Positions 2,813-43,537 of a stretch of 64,000 nucleotides of DNA are shown piece by piece. The stretch is from contig JAJPJS010000025.1 of the NCBI GenBank assembly GCA_021324115.1, forward strand, positions 326,343-390,342, in the 5' to 3' direction. The DNA comes from Nitrososphaerota archaeon (GTDB lineage: Archaea; Thermoproteota; Nitrososphaeria; Conexivisphaerales; DTJL01). A program made the translations under genes and the position numbers. Numbering within the stretch: the stretch's first letter is position 1; each line of letters starts with the position of its first letter. The notes beneath the pieces are model-generated. The model ran no database searches and was not told the DNA's origin. It was given only the letters and a program-made list of their open reading frames with translations.

Positions 2813-3775
2813 TCACAACCTTCTTAGCTTTTCCTGAACGGAATCGATACCGACTGATTCGACAACTTCGGATATCACAGCATTCTGAGAGCAACCCGCA
2901 ACCGCCATCGCCCTTGTGGTTGCGTATGCACCGCAGTTTCCCCTTGAATCGAGGACGATGGCACCTGCACTGCCCCGGCCGAACAATCTCTTCATCTCCT
3001 GTAACTCTCGAATGAGTACCATGTAAGGATCAACCCTGCCATCAAGGTCCCAGACAACTCTTGATGAAAGAGAATACCTCATTATATCTTCTCCCTCTCC
3101 GGTGGCCGAGACCGCTCCTTTGCCATTCATCGCATAGAAACCCGCTCCACATACCGGGCTATCGCCGATCCTTCCTGGCAGTTTGAATGCAGTTCCCCCG
3201 GTGCTTGTTGCGGCCGCAAGATTTCCATTTTCATCGATCGCGACAGCTCCGATTGTGTCCCTGACTGGTGGAAGCCGGTACTTAACAGGTAAAGTACGGA
3301 TCCATTTCTCCTTTGAGATGTATTGTTTCATTCTTCTATTGATGATATCTTTCCTAGCTTTGTCAACTTTCAGCTTGGAATACAAGCCGTACCCCTTTGC
3401 CAGGATTTCAGCTCCCCTTCCCGATATGAGCACATGGCGGGTATCGGTCATGATTTTGCGGGCCAGCTCTACTGGATTCGGCACGTTTCTTACCGAAGCA
3501 ACAGCACCAGCGCCTAATGTACGACCATCCATAAGTCCTGCATCAAGCTCGATATCGTACTCGATGTTAGGATATGCACCACTACCTGCATTGAATTTAC
3601 CCGAATCCTCCATCAAGGTAATCGCGGCAACCACTGCGTCCACCGAGGAGCCTTTCTTCATAATTCTTAATCCTTCGATCACTGCAGCTTTCATTTCCCC
3701 TCTAGCCTGTTCAACAGTTTTCGGTTCGACGTTCCACTCTCCTGCACCACCATGCACGAGTATCTTGGGTTTCAT
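2813..3775 (-). CDS. Isoaspartyl peptidase / L-asparaginase (Ntn-hydrolase, plant-type)
   Basis: MKPKILVHGGAGEW start, nucleophile context RDTIGAVAIDENGNLAAATSTGG; 320 aa. Confidence 0.93.
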   Translation of the reverse strand: MKPKILVHGGAGEWNVEPKTVEQARGEMKAAVIEGLRIMKKGSSVDAVVAAITLMEDSGKFNAGSGAYPNIEYDIELDAGLMDGRTLGAGAVASVRNVPNPVELARKIMTDTRHVLISGRGAEILAKGYGLYSKLKVDKARKDIINRRMKQYISKEKWIRTLPVKYRLPPVRDTIGAVAIDENGNLAAATSTGGTAFKLPGRIGDSPVCGAGFYAMNGKGAVSATGEGEDIMRYSLSSRVVWDLDGRVDPYMVLIRELQEMKRLFGRGSAGAIVLDSRGNCGAYATTRAMAVAGCSQNAVISEVVESVGIDSVQEKLRRL

Positions 3776-4968
3776 TTCAGTTCGTCTTCTCCTCTCTTTC
3801 TACCAATCCGTTGATTCTTCTCATTTCTGGGAATCCTGACCTTATAGAGACAGTTGTGTACGAGTGCGTTTGAAACAAGGTAACATCCGTCACTCGTTTC
3901 AAGATTATAAACAGGACCGGAAAAATGAAATCTCCTTACATGGGTCACAGGGACCCAGAATCCACTTCTGCCTTTCAGTGTGCCCTCTTTCGAAAAATCA
4001 ATTGAATAAAGATCGGGGTCCGTATTTAGCGATGTGTCCGCAGGTGCTTCGTCTTCATCAGGTTTAACCCGATGCAGTGCCGCAAACCTGCCCAGCCCTG
4101 CATACATCAATTGAATCTGAGTTGCCAGTACTGCGGATGAAACAATACGACGATGAGAATTCGACCGACTAACGGGACAATTCGAAAGAAGGCCCTCAAG
4201 AAATGCCCTTCTTACAGATATGTCCGGATGAAGTAAAATGTCTTGAGGTATGAAGAGCTCCTGGTTCGTATCAACCGCGCCTTCTTTGCTCAGGCTGTGT
4301 GACATCAGCAGAAGGCTAGCGGAAAACTCGGATATATTGAGCGAGGACCTATCGTCCTTTGTCACAAGCCGGCGAGTCTGCGAATCAGGTGAAAAAGAAG
4401 ATGATATACCAGAATAATTAGCCCATTGCGTCGTCATCTGCTGTGCAAGTGCCCTACCCTCAGATTTTGCGTCTTCAATGGATATACCTGACCTCAAATC
4501 TTCATTTGACCAATTGGTCGTCTTCTCCGATATTACGTCCGCTTCTGTTCCCTTGTGAGGCAGATGATGTGTATGATTGTGGAGAGAAGGCACCAGTAGA
4601 TAGTCGACCCTTTCGGCGCCGGATCCCGCGGGCATCAGTTTATACGCCGGTAACCAGTGAGCCTTTTGCAGCCTTCCGTCTGTACGGTGTGAGACGAACA
4701 AAGGATGTTCAGGCGTCACCCTGAAATCAAGGAGCCCAAGTGCTCCTATTACCAGTATGTCACCGTCGTATCGGTGCCTATTTACCCTTAGAACTCGCCC
4801 GGCTCCAGTTCTATCATATATTATATCATACGTCTTCATCATTGATATCGGTACCCGGCTTCCACCCACAACTGTGTCTCCTGGAAAGCACTTTGGACAG
4901 GTAGCATAATATTCGCTTTTACCCCGATAATTCCAGTTATATCCACAGTGGGCACAGCTCAGTTGCAC
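3772..4968 (-). CDS. Mini zinc-ribbon protein (52-aa extein) interrupted by an intein
   Basis: N-extein MQLSCAHCGYNWNYRGKSEYYATCPK, C-extein CLYKVRIPRNEKNQRIGRKRGEDELK; overlaps the asparaginase start by 4 nt. Confidence 0.88.
   Translation of the reverse strand: MQLSCAHCGYNWNYRGKSEYYATCPKCFPGDTVVGGSRVPISMMKTYDIIYDRTGAGRVLRVNRHRYDGDILVIGALGLLDFRVTPEHPLFVSHRTDGRLQKAHWLPAYKLMPAGSGAERVDYLLVPSLHNHTHHLPHKGTEADVISEKTTNWSNEDLRSGISIEDAKSEGRALAQQMTTQWANYSGISSSFSPDSQTRRLVTKDDRSSLNISEFSASLLLMSHSLSKEGAVDTNQELFIPQDILLHPDISVRRAFLEGLLSNCPVSRSNSHRRIVSSAVLATQIQLMYAGLGRFAALHRVKPDEDEAPADTSLNTDPDLYSIDFSKEGTLKGRSGFWVPVTHVRRFHFSGPVYNLETSDGCYLVSNALVHNCLYKVRIPRNEKNQRIGRKRGEDELK
3853..4890 (-). mobile_element. Intein (346 aa) with a degenerate LAGLIDADG-type endonuclease region
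   Basis: Block A CFPGDTVVGG, block B VTPEHPLFVS, block F/G VYNLETSDGCYLVSNALVHN|C; decayed DOD-like segment RRAFLEGLLSNCPVSRSNSHRRIVSSAVLATQIQLMYAGLGRFAAL. Confidence 0.9.
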
Positions 4969-37338: not shown

Positions 37339-37497
37339 GGCTGGCTTCAGAACAGGCCGACCTTGTTCCAGTGAGCGTCAGGTTCGAAACAATTTTCGTG
37401 ATTAAATTTTCTGGTCACCCGTTTCCCTGCATGCCCCGTTATTTCCTTCAAAGAAGTTACAACATCTTATATAAGTCAGAAAGTACGCGTAGCGACT

Positions 37498-39393
37498 GTG
37501 TCAGAGTCCGAACGAAAACCATTCATCAAAGAGGTCATACTGGAGAATTTCATGAGTTATGACTATGGAAGGATACCCCTGAGGTCCGGACTCAATGTTG
37601 TGCTGGGTCCCAATGGTGCCGGCAAATCAAGCATCCTTCTGGGAATTTCTGTCGCACTGGGACAGGCGTACACAGAGAGGTCTAGAAGGCTCAGCGATTT
37701 GGTCAAAAGGGGGAAGGATATTGCCAGGGTGACGCTGCTCCTCGACAATTCTCCAAGGGGCGGTAAGAGGCCACTCCCATTCAGGTCGGACCTCATACAC
37801 CTGTCCAGATACATAAGAAAGGATGGAACCTACTGGTTTGAAGTTGATTTCAAGGAAGCGAGCAAGATAGAAGTGACAGAAACGCTCCGCGGATTGGGTT
37901 TGAATCCTGATAATATGCTTGTTATAATGCATCAGGGCTTGGGGGATGCATTCAGTGTGGTAACCCCACAGGAGAAGCTCGCGATGGTCGAGGATGCGGT
38001 GGGGCTGGGAGACTACAGAAAGAGTCTCCTCGAGGCAAAGGAAAGGCTCGAGAAGATCAGGGCCGAGGAGGAAGAGCGCGAAAAGGACCTGCAGGCCGCC
38101 AGTGCTGGCCTGAGCAGATGGAAGGAGCAGTTTGAAAAGTACCTGCAGGTGAAGGAGCTCCATGATAAGAGCAGAAGTCTAAGGGTGGAGGAAGCGTGGT
38201 CTAAGGTGGATAAACTCACGAACTCTGTTCATCAATCCGAGGACAGGGTTTCGAGACTCCAGGAGGAGCTTTCGGCACTACGGGCTAGATTAAAAGAAAG
38301 GGAAACCGAGGCAGAAGCGGCTTCGAAGGACTTCGAAACTGTTCTTTCCACCTATTCGTCCGCTGAAAGGCAGAGGGAAAGGCTTAGGTTTGAGCAGCAG
38401 CTGGAAAGGGTCCTGCGCTCTTCCCAACAAGACGCCGGGGGACTTCGCCAACTTCAAACAGCTGGTTTGATATCCGATGAAACTTCTGAACTCCAAAAAA
38501 AGGTCGATGCTTCAGAGTCAAATGTGGCCGACATGCTTTCTGAACTCAAAGGTACGCTCGGTGAGCTCATACAGGCACGAGAGAAGGCCGCAGTTGACGG
38601 ATACAGAGTCTCAGAAATGGAAAAGGAACTTCGAAAACAGCAGAAGCAACTGGCAGACCTGAGGGAGGAAGAGGCTTCGCTGAAGGGCGATGCATCCATA
38701 CTCGGTGGGAGGCCTAACGAGGTCAGACAACTACTCGATGTCCAGGCCGAGCTCAGAGTCACGGAACTGAGGATCAAGGAGCTGGGGGACGTGCCTGCGG
38801 ACGCAGAGGCCATCTATCGTGATTATAAGGCAAGGATTGAGTCGTTGTCGGCCAGAATCACCGAGCTGCGCTCAAACAAGAATGCTACGCTGAGGGAAGT
38901 CAGCGAACGCTTCAGTGTCTGGAAAAGGGAGCTGGAGGCGCTGGTAATCGACCTCTCCAAACGTTACATGGATGTCCTTTCGATGGTGGGAGCGACTGGG
39001 AGGGTTTCCCTTTCCAACCCCGACGACCCAACCACAGCCGGCTTGGAAATACTGGTTTCGTTCAGAGGAGACCAGCTCGTTCCCCTTGATGCCTACGTTC
39101 AGAGCGGTGGCGAAAGGAGCAGCGCGGTGACCGCACTTCTTCTTGCGTTACAGGGAAGGGTGATCTCTCCATTCAGGGCAGTGGACGAATTTGACGTCCA
39201 TATGGACAAGCTTAACAGACAACTCTTCATGAAGAGCGTATATCAGCTATTTAACTCTGACAGTTCGGCTCAGTACGTCATCATTACGCCGGTGGAACCT
39301 GATGTATATGATCCAAATGCCAACTACATAATGGTGCACAAGGTCGCATCTTCATCAAAGGCGGGTGTAGCGGAGAAAGTTGCCCAAAGATAG
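37498..39393 (+). CDS. Compact SMC-like ATPase with Smc5/6-type head motifs
   Basis: VVLGPNGAGKSSILLGISVALGQ (Walker A), YVQSGGERSSAVTALLLALQ (signature), SPFRAVDEFDVHMDKLNRQLF (Walker B); coiled-coil middle, no obvious hinge or CxxC hook. Confidence 0.9.
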   Translation: MSESERKPFIKEVILENFMSYDYGRIPLRSGLNVVLGPNGAGKSSILLGISVALGQAYTERSRRLSDLVKRGKDIARVTLLLDNSPRGGKRPLPFRSDLIHLSRYIRKDGTYWFEVDFKEASKIEVTETLRGLGLNPDNMLVIMHQGLGDAFSVVTPQEKLAMVEDAVGLGDYRKSLLEAKERLEKIRAEEEEREKDLQAASAGLSRWKEQFEKYLQVKELHDKSRSLRVEEAWSKVDKLTNSVHQSEDRVSRLQEELSALRARLKERETEAEAASKDFETVLSTYSSAERQRERLRFEQQLERVLRSSQQDAGGLRQLQTAGLISDETSELQKKVDASESNVADMLSELKGTLGELIQAREKAAVDGYRVSEMEKELRKQQKQLADLREEEASLKGDASILGGRPNEVRQLLDVQAELRVTELRIKELGDVPADAEAIYRDYKARIESLSARITELRSNKNATLREVSERFSVWKRELEALVIDLSKRYMDVLSMVGATGRVSLSNPDDPTTAGLEILVSFRGDQLVPLDAYVQSGGERSSAVTALLLALQGRVISPFRAVDEFDVHMDKLNRQLFMKSVYQLFNSDSSAQYVIITPVEPDVYDPNANYIMVHKVASSSKAGVAEKVAQR

Positions 39394-40108
39394 AAAATCA
39401 AAAAATGCCGGAATCGAATACCGGGAAAGAATAGCGGCCCTCTCTGAAGAATTGAAGGAGACGGGAGCAGACCCGTTTGCAGTCGATGTCGACCATATCC
39501 TCGAAGAGCTGAGAAAGGACTATGCCGTATCAGACCCGAGGATACTCACGGCGGACGCGAAGGCGCTTGGGTCCGTGAGCGAGGTGGTCCAGATGCAGGA
39601 TACCTGGATAGGTAAGCAGCTTTCCGGGCTACAGGTGGATCCTGCCCTTCTCCTGGACAGGGTCAAGCGCCTTGGCCTCAGAAGTCTTGCAGCATCTCTC
39701 TACAGCAGTCAGCATCTGCCGGTGGGGGTCAAACAGGTGGCCACCAAGAGGCTACTCGAAGCGGCTGAATACTGGATTCAGCTTTCCGGCTGGGGCGGAC
39801 GGCTGAGCCTTCCGTCGAATCAGATGGGCGAGCTTCTTACAGAGACACTGGAGCTGACGCCAGAAGACCTGGAGCAGGAGGTGAAGGATATGTCAGAATC
39901 GGTGCTGCAGAGTGTTGCGGAGGGACCCGTTGCTTATGATGCACTTCTCGGTCAATCCACCGGAGCAGAACGTTTGAAAAGAGCGTTTGTTCTTTCACTT
40001 ATCTGCGCGAGGGGAGCAGTAACGCTGAGGTATGACCCCTTGCTGGGCAAATATGTTGTCCAGAGGGCCGAAGGGACGCCGGACAGTTCGGTGGCGATAA
40101 AAGTATGA
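39380..40108 (+). CDS. SMC-operon protein 2, possible kleisin-like subunit
   Basis: 242 aa, TTG start overlapping the SMC gene by 14 nt; C-terminal winged-helix-like ERLKRAFVLSLICARGAVTLRYDPLLGKYVV. Confidence 0.7.
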   Translation: MPKDRKSKNAGIEYRERIAALSEELKETGADPFAVDVDHILEELRKDYAVSDPRILTADAKALGSVSEVVQMQDTWIGKQLSGLQVDPALLLDRVKRLGLRSLAASLYSSQHLPVGVKQVATKRLLEAAEYWIQLSGWGGRLSLPSNQMGELLTETLELTPEDLEQEVKDMSESVLQSVAEGPVAYDALLGQSTGAERLKRAFVLSLICARGAVTLRYDPLLGKYVVQRAEGTPDSSVAIKV

Positions 40109-40701
40109 GTGAACCTGAGACTGAGAAAGAGAAGGAGGAGAAACTCGAGGCACAACTGAGAGAAAGCGCACGGGCAGGACTAAGGTTCCTGCTCATTCAG
40201 AGACGCAGCCAACCCGGGTGCAAGGGATGGGAGCTGAAAAGAGAGCTGGGAAGGAACTATCTTCAGATTCTCAGGCTTGTGAACGGCATGGCCTCGGACA
40301 TTGGCCTGAAGCTGGTTTCGGTGCCAGATGAGGACTTCCCTGATGACCCGGACAGGTCCAGGTATCTGCTGGTTTCAAAGGAGCCGCTCTCAGAAAAGGA
40401 CACGGGAAGCTGGCTCCGAATGGAGGAGGCGGCCAGTCTGGCGATCATACTTTCACACCTGTTCGTCAAGGGAGAGGTGGATTCAAAGGCCGTGGTGATG
40501 ACGATGGTGAGGGAGAAGCTTCCTTCCTGGAGGGCACAGCAGGTGGTGTCGAAGCTGACAAGGCTGGGGTACCTCGAGGATGATGCGGGTTACATAAGGG
40601 TCGGTTGGAGGACAAAAGTCGAAATAGACAGGGATGAGCTCTTGACCTCGATACTATCGAGGAGGCCTGAAGGTGGCGACCCGGCAAACCCGTCTACCTG
40701 A
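40105..40701 (+). CDS. SMC-operon protein 3, winged-helix protein, possible kite/Nse3(MAGE)-like subunit
   Basis: 198 aa, 4-nt overlap; IILSHLFVKGEVDSKAVVMTMVREKLPSWRAQQVVSKLTRLGYLEDDAGYIRVGWRTKVEID. Confidence 0.7.
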   Translation: MSEPETEKEKEEKLEAQLRESARAGLRFLLIQRRSQPGCKGWELKRELGRNYLQILRLVNGMASDIGLKLVSVPDEDFPDDPDRSRYLLVSKEPLSEKDTGSWLRMEEAASLAIILSHLFVKGEVDSKAVVMTMVREKLPSWRAQQVVSKLTRLGYLEDDAGYIRVGWRTKVEIDRDELLTSILSRRPEGGDPANPST

Positions 40702-43537
40702 TGAACCTTCTCAGGTTTCTTCTCCTCTCATATTCAACCAGGTCCGAAAAGAAGTCATCATCAGCCAGCACATGCTTCGAAAGAATCGACTCGGCTTCAT
40801 CTCCTTTGAGGCGATACGCAAGAACCATGACGGCGAGTGTCCCGTATTTCTCCACAAGTCTTCCGCTTGAAATTAGCTCGTCTCTCAACTTTTTCCCTTG
40901 AGCAGAAGGTTCCATGCCGACACTCAGTCTTCTTGCAAGCCTTTCGACCTTTTCTTCGTCTTCGGGAGGTACGGCGATGCGCTGCGAGCCGCAAACAGGG
41001 CACCTTGGCGCAATCCTGAGTTCCGAGACGTATACTCTGGATGTGTACTTCCAGCAGTTTGTGCACACCAGAAGGACCGAGGAACCGAGCACCCTCACTT
41101 TGGCCCCCTCGACTGCAAGCCTTTTCAGACGGTTCGGGTCCATGACCTCCCCCTTGCGGGACATCTCCTCAAGGGCAATCGAGGCAAGAGGGGTGGGCGT
41201 TTCGGTTTCCCCGATCACGGCCACCGATATTTCGCCCGTTGCAACCTTTGAAAGAAACCTGGAAAGACCCCTGACGTCAACATCCTCATGCAGAAATGTG
41301 CGCCAGGCTTCTTCAAAGGGAAGGCCATCCTTGTATGCGGCCATGACCCTGTCGAGCATGCCGCTGGTAAGGTCCGCGTCCCTTCCAAGAACACCAATCT
41401 TCCTCGCAACATGCATGAACCTGATCCTGAAAAATCCTGACTCTTCGCATGCGCTCTTCAGGATCGACTCTAGGTCGGCAGAAGCCAGATAGAGAAGGTT
41501 CCTGTGGACATCATCGCACGTCAATCCCCTGCCTTCGAGCATCACCCTGTAGGCATCTTCGCCTGTCACGATGCGCCTGTTTTCAGATAGCACCCTTGCA
41601 AGCAACCTGGACAGGGTTCTGTTGACCCTCAGCCCCCAGTGTGTGTGAATTATGACCATGCCGTTCCAGGATTCCAGTGTGACCGTTCTATCTGAAGGGA
41701 CGGGCTGGCCATTGGACAGTTGTTGCAATATTTCAACAAGAGCCCTCTTCCCTGAGGGAAGTTCCAGGCCGCTTTCGCCTGAAAGGGTCTGAAGCCACGA
41801 GTCGAATTCCGATCTTTTCCTGGCTAGGTCGGTGCAGATCCTCCTGTAGCTGCCCACCTTCAGAGCCACCTCGGATGGCACCGGTATCTCCTCGCCCACC
41901 CAGCTGGGTACCGCGCCCATCGGGTCCTCGGACCTTGTCACGTAAACTGTGCCGTTATGTACCTGCTCGATTCTCCAGGCGGCACCGCCGAGTATGAACT
42001 TCTTTCCTATTTCGCCCTCCTTAGCCACGAATTCTTCATCCAACATGCCCACATTCGTGGAATCCCTCGATACAACCGGGTACTGCCTCGTCTCAGGTAT
42101 CATTGATAAATTCTCAAAATAGTAGCGGAAGAGGGGTTTCGAGTCGAACGCCCTGGACACTGTATCCCCTCTCAGGCTGGCAAGTCGCGGCCTCATCGAT
42201 TCCATGAATTCCACACCCCTTCTGAGCTCGGCATCTGAAAGGTTCCTGAACACGTAGGACCTCCTGAATATTGTGAGCAGGTCGGGAAGATTCCAGCTTC
42301 TCCTTTCGATAAGAAGGCCAGCAAGCTGCTGCACCAGAACATCGTACGGCTTTTCATGAACTGACGTTTCCTCATAAGAACCCTTCATAGCCAGTTCGGA
42401 TATCGCGGCTGCCTCAAGGGTATCGTCAGAATCCTGTGTAATGACAAAGCATCGACTCACCTTCGAAAGGGTATGGCCACTCCTGCCCGCCCTCTGGACA
42501 AGTCTGGTGACCTGTCTTGGTGAGCCATACTGTACTATCAGCTTGACTGATCCTACGTCTATTCCCATTTCCAGACTGCTGGTGGAAACTATTGCTCTGA
42601 GGTCGCCTAGCTTCAGGCTTGTTTCCGCCAACGACCTTGCACCCCTTGAAAGACTTCCATGGTGCACGGCGAGCCTGATCTTTTCGTCCCACATTCTTAG
42701 CCTGCTCGAGAGAATCTCGGCCTCAGATCTGGTGTTGGTGAATACGATCGCGGGTCCTCTTTCTATAAGCGAAGCGAGTAACTTGACCCTGGCCACCACT
42801 TCGGGAAATGTCTGTATCCTTGAAGCATCGGCTTCGTCTTCCGGCCCTGCCGCCGGATACAGTATCTTGAATTCAAACTTCTTTTCCGTGCTGACCTTGA
42901 TCACTTCACAGGTTCTGGTCGGTCCCACGAGAAACGAAGCGACTACTTCGGGGGAACCGACGGTCGCCGACAGCCCCACCCTCTGAAAGTCTGAATCTGT
43001 CAGCTCTCTAAGCCTTTCCAGGCATACGCTCAGTTGGCTACCCCTCTTGTCGGTGGCGAGTTCATGTATCTCATCTATGACGGCCCATCTCAACGGTGAA
43101 AGGTACTGAGCCAGCCTTCTTGATACCAGGAGCACCTGCAGGGTTTCAGGAGTCGTTATGATGATGTCCGGCGGGGCAAGACTCTGTGCCCTTCTCTCCT
43201 CGAGCGCCGTATCCCCATGTCTCACTGACAACCTGATGTCGAGCTGCTTGCACCATGTTTCCAGTCTTCCGAGAAGGTCTCTGTTCAGCGCCCGGAGTGG
43301 GGTGACGTAAAGGGCCTTCACCCCCCGTTTTGAAGTTAGATTCTCGCGAATGATGGTGTCGAGGATTGGGATCATTGCAGCTTCAGTCTTCCCAGAACCG
43401 GTTGGGCTCACCAGCAGGATATTCTTGCGCTGAAGGACGACAGGAATACATTCAACTTGTGGCGGTGTGGGAGTCGTCATGCCTGACTCCCTAAGTAACT
43501 CATTCATCCTGGGTGTAAGGAACTCGAATACGCTCAA
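40694..43537 (-). CDS. Lhr-type large ATP-dependent helicase
   Basis: LLVSPTGSGKTEAAMIP, WAVIDEIHELATDKRG, QVTRLVQRAGRSGH; C-terminal zinc-binding CTNCWKY...CPVCGS. Confidence 0.92.
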   Translation of the reverse strand: MSVFEFLTPRMNELLRESGMTTPTPPQVECIPVVLQRKNILLVSPTGSGKTEAAMIPILDTIIRENLTSKRGVKALYVTPLRALNRDLLGRLETWCKQLDIRLSVRHGDTALEERRAQSLAPPDIIITTPETLQVLLVSRRLAQYLSPLRWAVIDEIHELATDKRGSQLSVCLERLRELTDSDFQRVGLSATVGSPEVVASFLVGPTRTCEVIKVSTEKKFEFKILYPAAGPEDEADASRIQTFPEVVARVKLLASLIERGPAIVFTNTRSEAEILSSRLRMWDEKIRLAVHHGSLSRGARSLAETSLKLGDLRAIVSTSSLEMGIDVGSVKLIVQYGSPRQVTRLVQRAGRSGHTLSKVSRCFVITQDSDDTLEAAAISELAMKGSYEETSVHEKPYDVLVQQLAGLLIERRSWNLPDLLTIFRRSYVFRNLSDAELRRGVEFMESMRPRLASLRGDTVSRAFDSKPLFRYYFENLSMIPETRQYPVVSRDSTNVGMLDEEFVAKEGEIGKKFILGGAAWRIEQVHNGTVYVTRSEDPMGAVPSWVGEEIPVPSEVALKVGSYRRICTDLARKRSEFDSWLQTLSGESGLELPSGKRALVEILQQLSNGQPVPSDRTVTLESWNGMVIIHTHWGLRVNRTLSRLLARVLSENRRIVTGEDAYRVMLEGRGLTCDDVHRNLLYLASADLESILKSACEESGFFRIRFMHVARKIGVLGRDADLTSGMLDRVMAAYKDGLPFEEAWRTFLHEDVDVRGLSRFLSKVATGEISVAVIGETETPTPLASIALEEMSRKGEVMDPNRLKRLAVEGAKVRVLGSSVLLVCTNCWKYTSRVYVSELRIAPRCPVCGSQRIAVPPEDEEKVERLARRLSVGMEPSAQGKKLRDELISSGRLVEKYGTLAVMVLAYRLKGDEAESILSKHVLADDDFFSDLVEYERRRNLRRFIR

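Follow-up and report, generated by a model that had tools for sequence, protein, structure and literature searches.

According to reviews, the kite-based SMC complexes comprise Smc5/6 on the eukaryotic side and Smc-ScpAB, MukBEF, and Wadjet among prokaryotes, with no archaeal Smc5/6 listed (PMC10512200), and archaeal Smc reportedly operates in the absence of a kite (PMC7055376). In kite complexes, ATP unites the heads, DNA lies on the heads, and the kleisin and kite close the clamp (PMC10512200). An archaeal "SMC5/6-related" SMC clade that groups with SMC5/6 has been published (support, 100/0.99), and the available part of that account covers the phylogeny of the ATPase, without kleisin or kite partners (PMC9389158). 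Here, we describe a three-gene operon from a Nitrososphaerota archaeon (GCA_021324115.1; 2.14 Mb in 27 contigs), located in a 64,000-nucleotide stretch of contig JAJPJS010000025.1 (positions 326,343 to 390,342; the window), whose ATPase is almost certainly of this same lineage. We assign a probability of roughly 80% to the reading that this operon encodes a DNA clamp of the Smc5/6 type, built as a homodimeric SMC-kleisin-kite complex without a hinge, for DNA repair or replication. That its products compose an SMC-kleisin-kite complex is the part we consider most secure, and very likely.

The eukaryotic Smc5/6 core (Smc5-Smc6-Nse4-Nse1-Nse3) has in common with this operon an SMC ATPase of the same clade, a kleisin of the Nse4/ScpA type, and a kite of the Nse3/Nse1 type. 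The archaeal version differs from it in that a single ATPase, hinge-less and with short arms, unites the signature residues of Smc5 and Smc6, and in that the operon loci carry one SMC gene (presumably for a homodimer) rather than two. There is likewise one kite gene, whose 198-aa product lacks a cysteine-rich RING, in place of Nse1 (with its RING) and Nse3. No Nse2 or Nse5/6 was seen in the operon, and no genome-wide search for these subunits was made.

The ATPase and its place among SMC proteins

The operon consists of three translationally overlapping genes, exactly as the initial annotation had delimited them (Table 1). The ATPase gene starts with GTG, gene 2 starts with TTG and overlaps it by 14 nt, and gene 3 starts with ATG and overlaps gene 2 by 4 nt. 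The transcript is probably leaderless, given that a TATA-like box is centered only ~28 nt before the GTG start.

Table 1. Features of the operon and of related loci; positions are those of the window unless a locus is named.
Feature	Position	Strand	Basis or remark
TATA-like box CTTATATAAG	37466..37475	+	Read from sequence; putative function
Gene 1: Smc5/6-related SMC ATPase, 631 aa, hinge-less	37498..39393	+	Open reading frame; profile, hinge and motif checks, tree
Walker A GPNGAGKS	37606..37629	+	In 32/32 relatives
Putative short coiled-coil hairpin, ~residues 176-470, no CxxC hook	38023..38907	+	Composition and alignment
ABC signature QSGGERSS, Smc5-like	39100..39123	+	Sequence, profile comparison
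Walker B/D-loop SPFRAVDEFDVHMDKLNR, Smc6-like, catalytic Glu present	39166..39219	+	Motif in 32/32
Gene 2: kleisin, ScpA/Nse4-type, 242 aa	39380..40108	+	Profile, Pfam, model, fold search
Kleisin long helix, residues 53-83	39536..39628	+	Model; expected neck-binding element
Kleisin C-terminal winged helix, residues 161-229, cap-binding type	39860..40066	+	Model, fold match
Gene 3: kite, Nse3/Nse1-type tandem winged helix, 198 aa	40105..40701	+	Profile, model, fold search
Kite winged helix A, residues 7-91, invariant G38, W42, E43, G49	40123..40377	+	Alignment, model
Kite winged helix B, residues 106-175, invariant Y156, R169, E173	40420..40629	+	Alignment, model
Neighboring Lhr-type helicase, convergent, 8-nt overlap with gene 3	40694..43537	-	Open reading frame, domain annotation
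Canonical Smc-ScpA-ScpB operon, same genome	G000:C26 ~150168-154900 (L237:5169-9902)		Profile/domain scan
Asgard hinge-type Smc5/6-related operons	L239:3419-8435, L240, L241, L255		

The ATPase matches Pfam SMC_N at 5.7e-27. Walker A, the signature, and the motif DE(F/Y/M)D(V/I)HMD are present in all 32 family members (567 to 775 aa), and the QSGGERSS and Walker B sequences that had been pointed out earlier lie in the window at the places given in Table 1. The earlier reading had also seen no evident hinge; no SMC_hinge match at an E value of ≤0.01 is listed for any of the 32 proteins, and this genome's canonical SMC, serving as a control, scores 6.6e-21. A CxxC zinc hook occurs in none of the 32. 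Composition and alignment place a short coiled-coil hairpin where usual SMCs have their long arms and hinge, and the conserved neck arginines of the 32 members are only 237 to 358 residues apart, which corresponds to roughly 120 to 180 residues per arm. Judged from sequence, the protein is an active-looking SMC head with intact ATP-site motifs on a short coiled coil. An oceanic actinobacterial SMC also has neither hinge nor zinc hook; it branches with actinobacterial SMCs, and the available part of its description reports no partner set (PMC12153180). The archaeal ATPase coexists with a canonical SMC, unlike the actinobacterial protein as portrayed in that part.

When the Protein Data Bank (PDB) was searched with the ATPase family profile, all yeast and human Smc6 and Smc5 chains came out on top (Smc6, 219 bits for yeast and 205 for human; Smc5, 215 and 194). 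Canonical SMC heads (≤190; 5xei), Smc2 (156), Smc1 (132), Smc3 (131), and Smc4 (113) ranked lower, with Rad50 at 50 bits. The genome's own canonical SMC, used as a single query, gave 46 PDB matches at an E value of ≤1e-10, and neither Smc5 nor Smc6 is listed with them. We built head-domain trees in which yeast Smc5 and Smc6, human SMC3, and Smc4 (chain 6qj2_A) were entered as segments from the profile-search alignments; an Asgard group of 960- to 996-aa SMCs was omitted from the final tree on account of its long branches. The unrooted tree separated the ATPase family, Smc5, Smc6, and an 832-aa Asgard SMC from a canonical side made up of archaeal and bacterial SMC, SMC3, and Smc4 (100/100). A Rad50 outgroup was added because the approximately unbiased (AU) test on the unrooted tree did not reject a grouping of the family with canonical SMC (P = 0.18). 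In the rooted tree, the family again formed a clade with the Asgard SMC and yeast Smc5 and Smc6 (99/96), and canonical SMC, SMC3, and Smc4 were held together at 98/98. These comparisons support the assignment of the ATPase to the Smc5/6 clade, apart from canonical SMC and Rad50, in agreement with the published archaeal clade as available (PMC9389158) and with the initial annotation, which had read the operon as Smc5/6-like. A RecN identity was dropped after the profile and tree tests. The same annotation had called the Walker B motif typical of Smc6, and this region (DEFDVxMD) is Smc6-like; the signature (QSGGERS) and QYLVITP are Smc5-like, and the head is therefore mixed. Most of the proteins recovered when contigs were scanned with the ATPase profile were canonical SMCs, which were of use as controls; three named relatives came from Thaumarchaeota archaeon UBA160 (Nitrososphaerota) and from metagenome-assembled genomes of Thermofilales and Bathyarchaeota.

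We considered that the ATPase could instead be a repair enzyme of the Rad50/ASRP kind (coalescin ClsN or Sph type) encoded beside two unrelated winged-helix DNA-binding proteins. ASRPs are likewise short archaeal SMC-like ATPases, and the protein gives weak ASRP and Rad50 profile matches, but it reaches just 41.6 bits for ASRP, where the cut-off is 300, and the rooted tree keeps it out of Rad50. ASRP has a zinc hook, a clade of its own, and no conserved gene neighbors, according to the part of PMC9389158 available, and Rad50 combines a zinc hook with an Mre11 partner, whereas no CxxC was found in the operon family. Given also that a Rad50-like/Mre11-like pair is encoded separately in this genome and that the partner proteins match kleisin and kite specifically, as described below, this explanation is highly improbable.

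The kleisin and kite partners

Gene 2 alone gave no useful match in Pfam or NCBIfam scans, and the information came from family profiles and models. The best PDB match of the gene 2 profile was the N terminus of archaeal ScpA (E = 0.0015), and the next kleisins, EID3/Nse4 (0.008) and yeast Nse4 (0.04), aligned at the C-terminal part. Four family members match Pfam Nse4_C, the best at 9e-6. A blind scan of all open reading frames at 80 loci with this profile recovered three true relatives and, beyond these, only a haloarchaeal gene that adjoins SMC in the ScpA position (L109; 4e-7). In the model (pLDDT, 79), the N-terminal domain is helical and aligns with archaeal ScpA; a long helix follows it, and the C terminus folds as a winged helix. 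The best four Foldseek matches of the model were Nse4, Nse4, ScpA-C, and the kleisin of cohesin, and comparison with ScpA-C gave a Z score of 9.4 over 68 residues, in line with the kleisin-like winged helix that had been suspected in this protein. We conclude that the gene 2 product is a kleisin with similarity to ScpA and Nse4. The gene 2 profile also matches sorting nexin-25 (E = 0.005 to 0.05), which counts against this assignment; we read the match as a helical chance similarity because sorting nexin-25 is absent among the fold-search matches listed.

Gene 3 alone had no match in Pfam or NCBIfam. Searched against 177,635 PDB sequences, its family profile returned Nse3/MAGE or Nse1 proteins as all of the best five matches (E = 0.002 to 0.23), and Pfam matches of single family members are to MAGE (3.6e-4) and SMC_Nse1 (0.007). 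The model (pLDDT, 89.5) contains two winged helices. Foldseek placed Nse3, MAGE-G1, and Nse1 in the best five positions (E = 1.8e-6 to 1.5e-4); MAGE-A, MukE, and others came next. Finer structural alignment with Nse3 of the Nse1-Nse3-Nse4 complex gave a Z score of 13.6 over 170 of the 198 residues at 3.2 Å, compared to 10.4 for Nse1, 9.1 for JetC, and 8.5 for ScpB. As modeled, the gene 3 product is a kite closest to Nse3/Nse1, and the Nse3-type MAGE likeness noted in the initial annotation was thus borne out.

The genome also contains a canonical Smc of 1,189 aa whose gene overlaps with scpA and scpB as one operon, as well as a 680-aa Rad50-like ATPase gene that adjoins one for an Mre11-like phosphoesterase (L238:3845-7135), and the three-gene operon is therefore a third, separate machine. 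The overlapping Smc-ScpA-ScpB operon contrasts with the separation of smc and scpA in all 14 Thaumarchaeota species examined by others (PMC7055376). The Rad50-like ATPase is short, and its ASRP score nearly reaches its Rad50 score.

The operon could also be a degenerate or specialized copy of archaeal Smc-ScpA-ScpB from which the hinge was lost. Smc-ScpAB resembles it in having an SMC homodimer, a single kleisin, a homodimeric kite, and an operon layout; in addition, ScpA is the best PDB match of the gene 2 profile, and a grouping of the family with canonical SMC was not rejected in either tree. However, the head ranks closest to Smc5/6 in the profile search and falls in the 99/96 clade, the kite model scores higher against Nse3 and Nse1 than against ScpB, and ScpAB partners a full-length hinge SMC, with the canonical set retained intact in an operon of its own in this genome. 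We consider such an origin unlikely.

Conservation, neighboring genes, and Asgard relatives

The initial annotation had treated the three genes as one unit, and our survey found the order ATPase-kleisin-kite at 40/40 loci of the class and at 38/43 further loci of the phylum (78/83). The five exceptions involve contig ends, one local rearrangement, and genes not found in the stretch fetched. Among 398 genomes of the phylum, 158 have the ATPase, 157 have the kite (nearly always as a single copy), and 152 have both; no ATPase or kite match was present among the genomes listed for two families (f7 and f10), which appear to be ammonia oxidizers. Distance matrices calculated for each of the three proteins are correlated with one another (r = 0.87 to 0.89), and none of 2,000 permutations was as high. 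Given the conserved order and the correlated distances, the three-gene arrangement is not due to chance.

This distribution bears on whether the operon is a mobile anti-plasmid or anti-phage system of Wadjet or Lamassu build. KITE-SMC defense systems are known (PMC10586767), MukBEF, MksBEF, and Wadjet are kite-based SMC complexes with a related kite fold (MukE, JetC), and PADLOC models match the ATPase in a generic way (LmuB, 8.6e-17; JetC, 1.1e-7). Those complexes, in contrast, have long hinge SMCs of another branch and other kleisins, and neither gene 2 nor gene 3 has a PADLOC match. Across loci, the operon showed no nuclease or effector gene that recurs, nor was a JetD nuclease or Lamassu effector found among its recurrent annotated neighbors, and the broad single-copy spread (~40% of the sampled phylum genomes) with correlated divergence is unlike a sporadic defense island. 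A defense function is thus very unlikely.

The commonest neighbor outside the operon is an Lhr-type helicase (DEAD, WH_Lhr, DEAD_assoc). It occurs at 43 of 82 loci, and at the majority of these 43 its gene converges on gene 3 and abuts it or comes close to doing so. Helicases of the Lhr type act in DNA repair, and a functional tie between helicase and operon is plausible. At ten loci (L064, L065, L066, L069-L073, L041, and L063), the ATPase gene is immediately preceded by a co-oriented gene of the metallo-beta-lactamase fold (~295 aa), and the two often overlap; at ~22 loci (L194-L226 and L106), a ~228-aa protein without Pfam or NCBIfam match is encoded divergently upstream. Elsewhere in the window (3772-4968, minus strand), a small zinc-ribbon-like open reading frame is apparently split by an intein-like insert (CFPGDTVV ... 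ALVHN, then C); it has no Pfam match and, at one end, a weak FmdB zinc ribbon.

Relatives of the operon also occur in Asgard archaea, where the kite profile matches 29/148 genomes of the phylum. The same three-gene arrangement is present in four of them (G558, G566, G585, and G542), with an SMC of 832 to 840 aa where complete, and the SMC at locus L239 has a clear hinge (2.8e-13). Hinge-bearing and hinge-less forms therefore both occur within the Smc5/6-related archaeal clade, and the simpler interpretation is that Thermoproteota lost it. In three of the operons with the 832- to 840-aa SMC, an AAA+ ATPase gene (~463 aa) lies immediately upstream, with an overlap. About 15 other Asgard neighborhoods examined (L256-L268 and L270-L272) encode the 960- to 996-aa SMC, a ~260-aa candidate kleisin, a kite match, and a ~150-aa protein without family match, possibly a second kite or a new subunit.

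The proposed complex and its implications

We infer the subunit contacts, the stoichiometry, and the ATP-driven clamping as follows. Two copies of the 631-aa ATPase would form a homodimer, with the N-terminal helices of the kleisin holding the neck of one copy and its C-terminal winged helix holding the head of the other, and the kleisin would carry a kite homodimer. ATP would join the heads, the kite dimer would shut over DNA lying on the engaged heads, and hydrolysis would reopen the clamp. This ATP-driven mechanism is probable, if less so than the composition itself. All parts of the clamp are encoded, and the large hinge-closed ring would be absent or shut only by the coil tips, given that there is no hinge and that each arm has at most about half its usual length. 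Without that ring, the complex would be expected to grip, bridge, or locally compact DNA, such as intermediates of recombination or replication, instead of encircling large loops, and loop extrusion, though possible, is less likely. A role in DNA repair or replication, for which Smc5/6 biology and the Lhr linkage argue, is in our judgment about an even bet.

Besides the sorting nexin-25 match, several points weigh against this reading. The grouping of the ATPase family with canonical SMC is only marginally disfavored (p-AU, 0.057 rooted and 0.18 unrooted), and yeast Smc5 and Smc6 are long branches in the head tree. The gene 2 model is weak in the middle, where confidence is low, and has a pTM of 0.38. 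The sequence E values tying genes 2 and 3 to the eukaryotic subunits are modest, and the case for both genes therefore rests on the specificity of the matches and on the folds. The convergent Lhr linkage may stem from the 3' overlap rather than from a common function, and a hinge-less motor may differ in action from every characterized SMC complex.

The initial annotation had also suggested that a complete partner set in archaea may be undescribed. The ATPase lineage was already known, as the available part of PMC9389158 attests; for the partner set and the hinge-less form, we found no description in the literature searched, although an earlier account is possible given that the 2021 naming paper and preprints fell outside the search.

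In summary, our study describes an archaeal SMC-kleisin-kite operon whose closest counterparts appear to be the subunits of eukaryotic Smc5/6. The archaeal operons, hinge-less in Thermoproteota and hinge-bearing in some Asgards, might constitute a prokaryotic Smc5/6 from whose kleisin and kite Nse4 and Nse1/Nse3 descend, and we see the chances for and against this descent, and for a core that predates eukaryotes, as evenly balanced. If the archaeal ATPase has its own kleisin and kite, the Smc5/6 core would date to before eukaryotes, and Thermoproteota would possess a natural SMC-kleisin-kite machine able to run without any hinge. A small homodimeric system from thermophilic lineages would offer a way to ask what Smc5/6 does, and the absence of a hinge would allow a direct test of which SMC activities, among clamping, bridging, and loop extrusion, require a closed ring.

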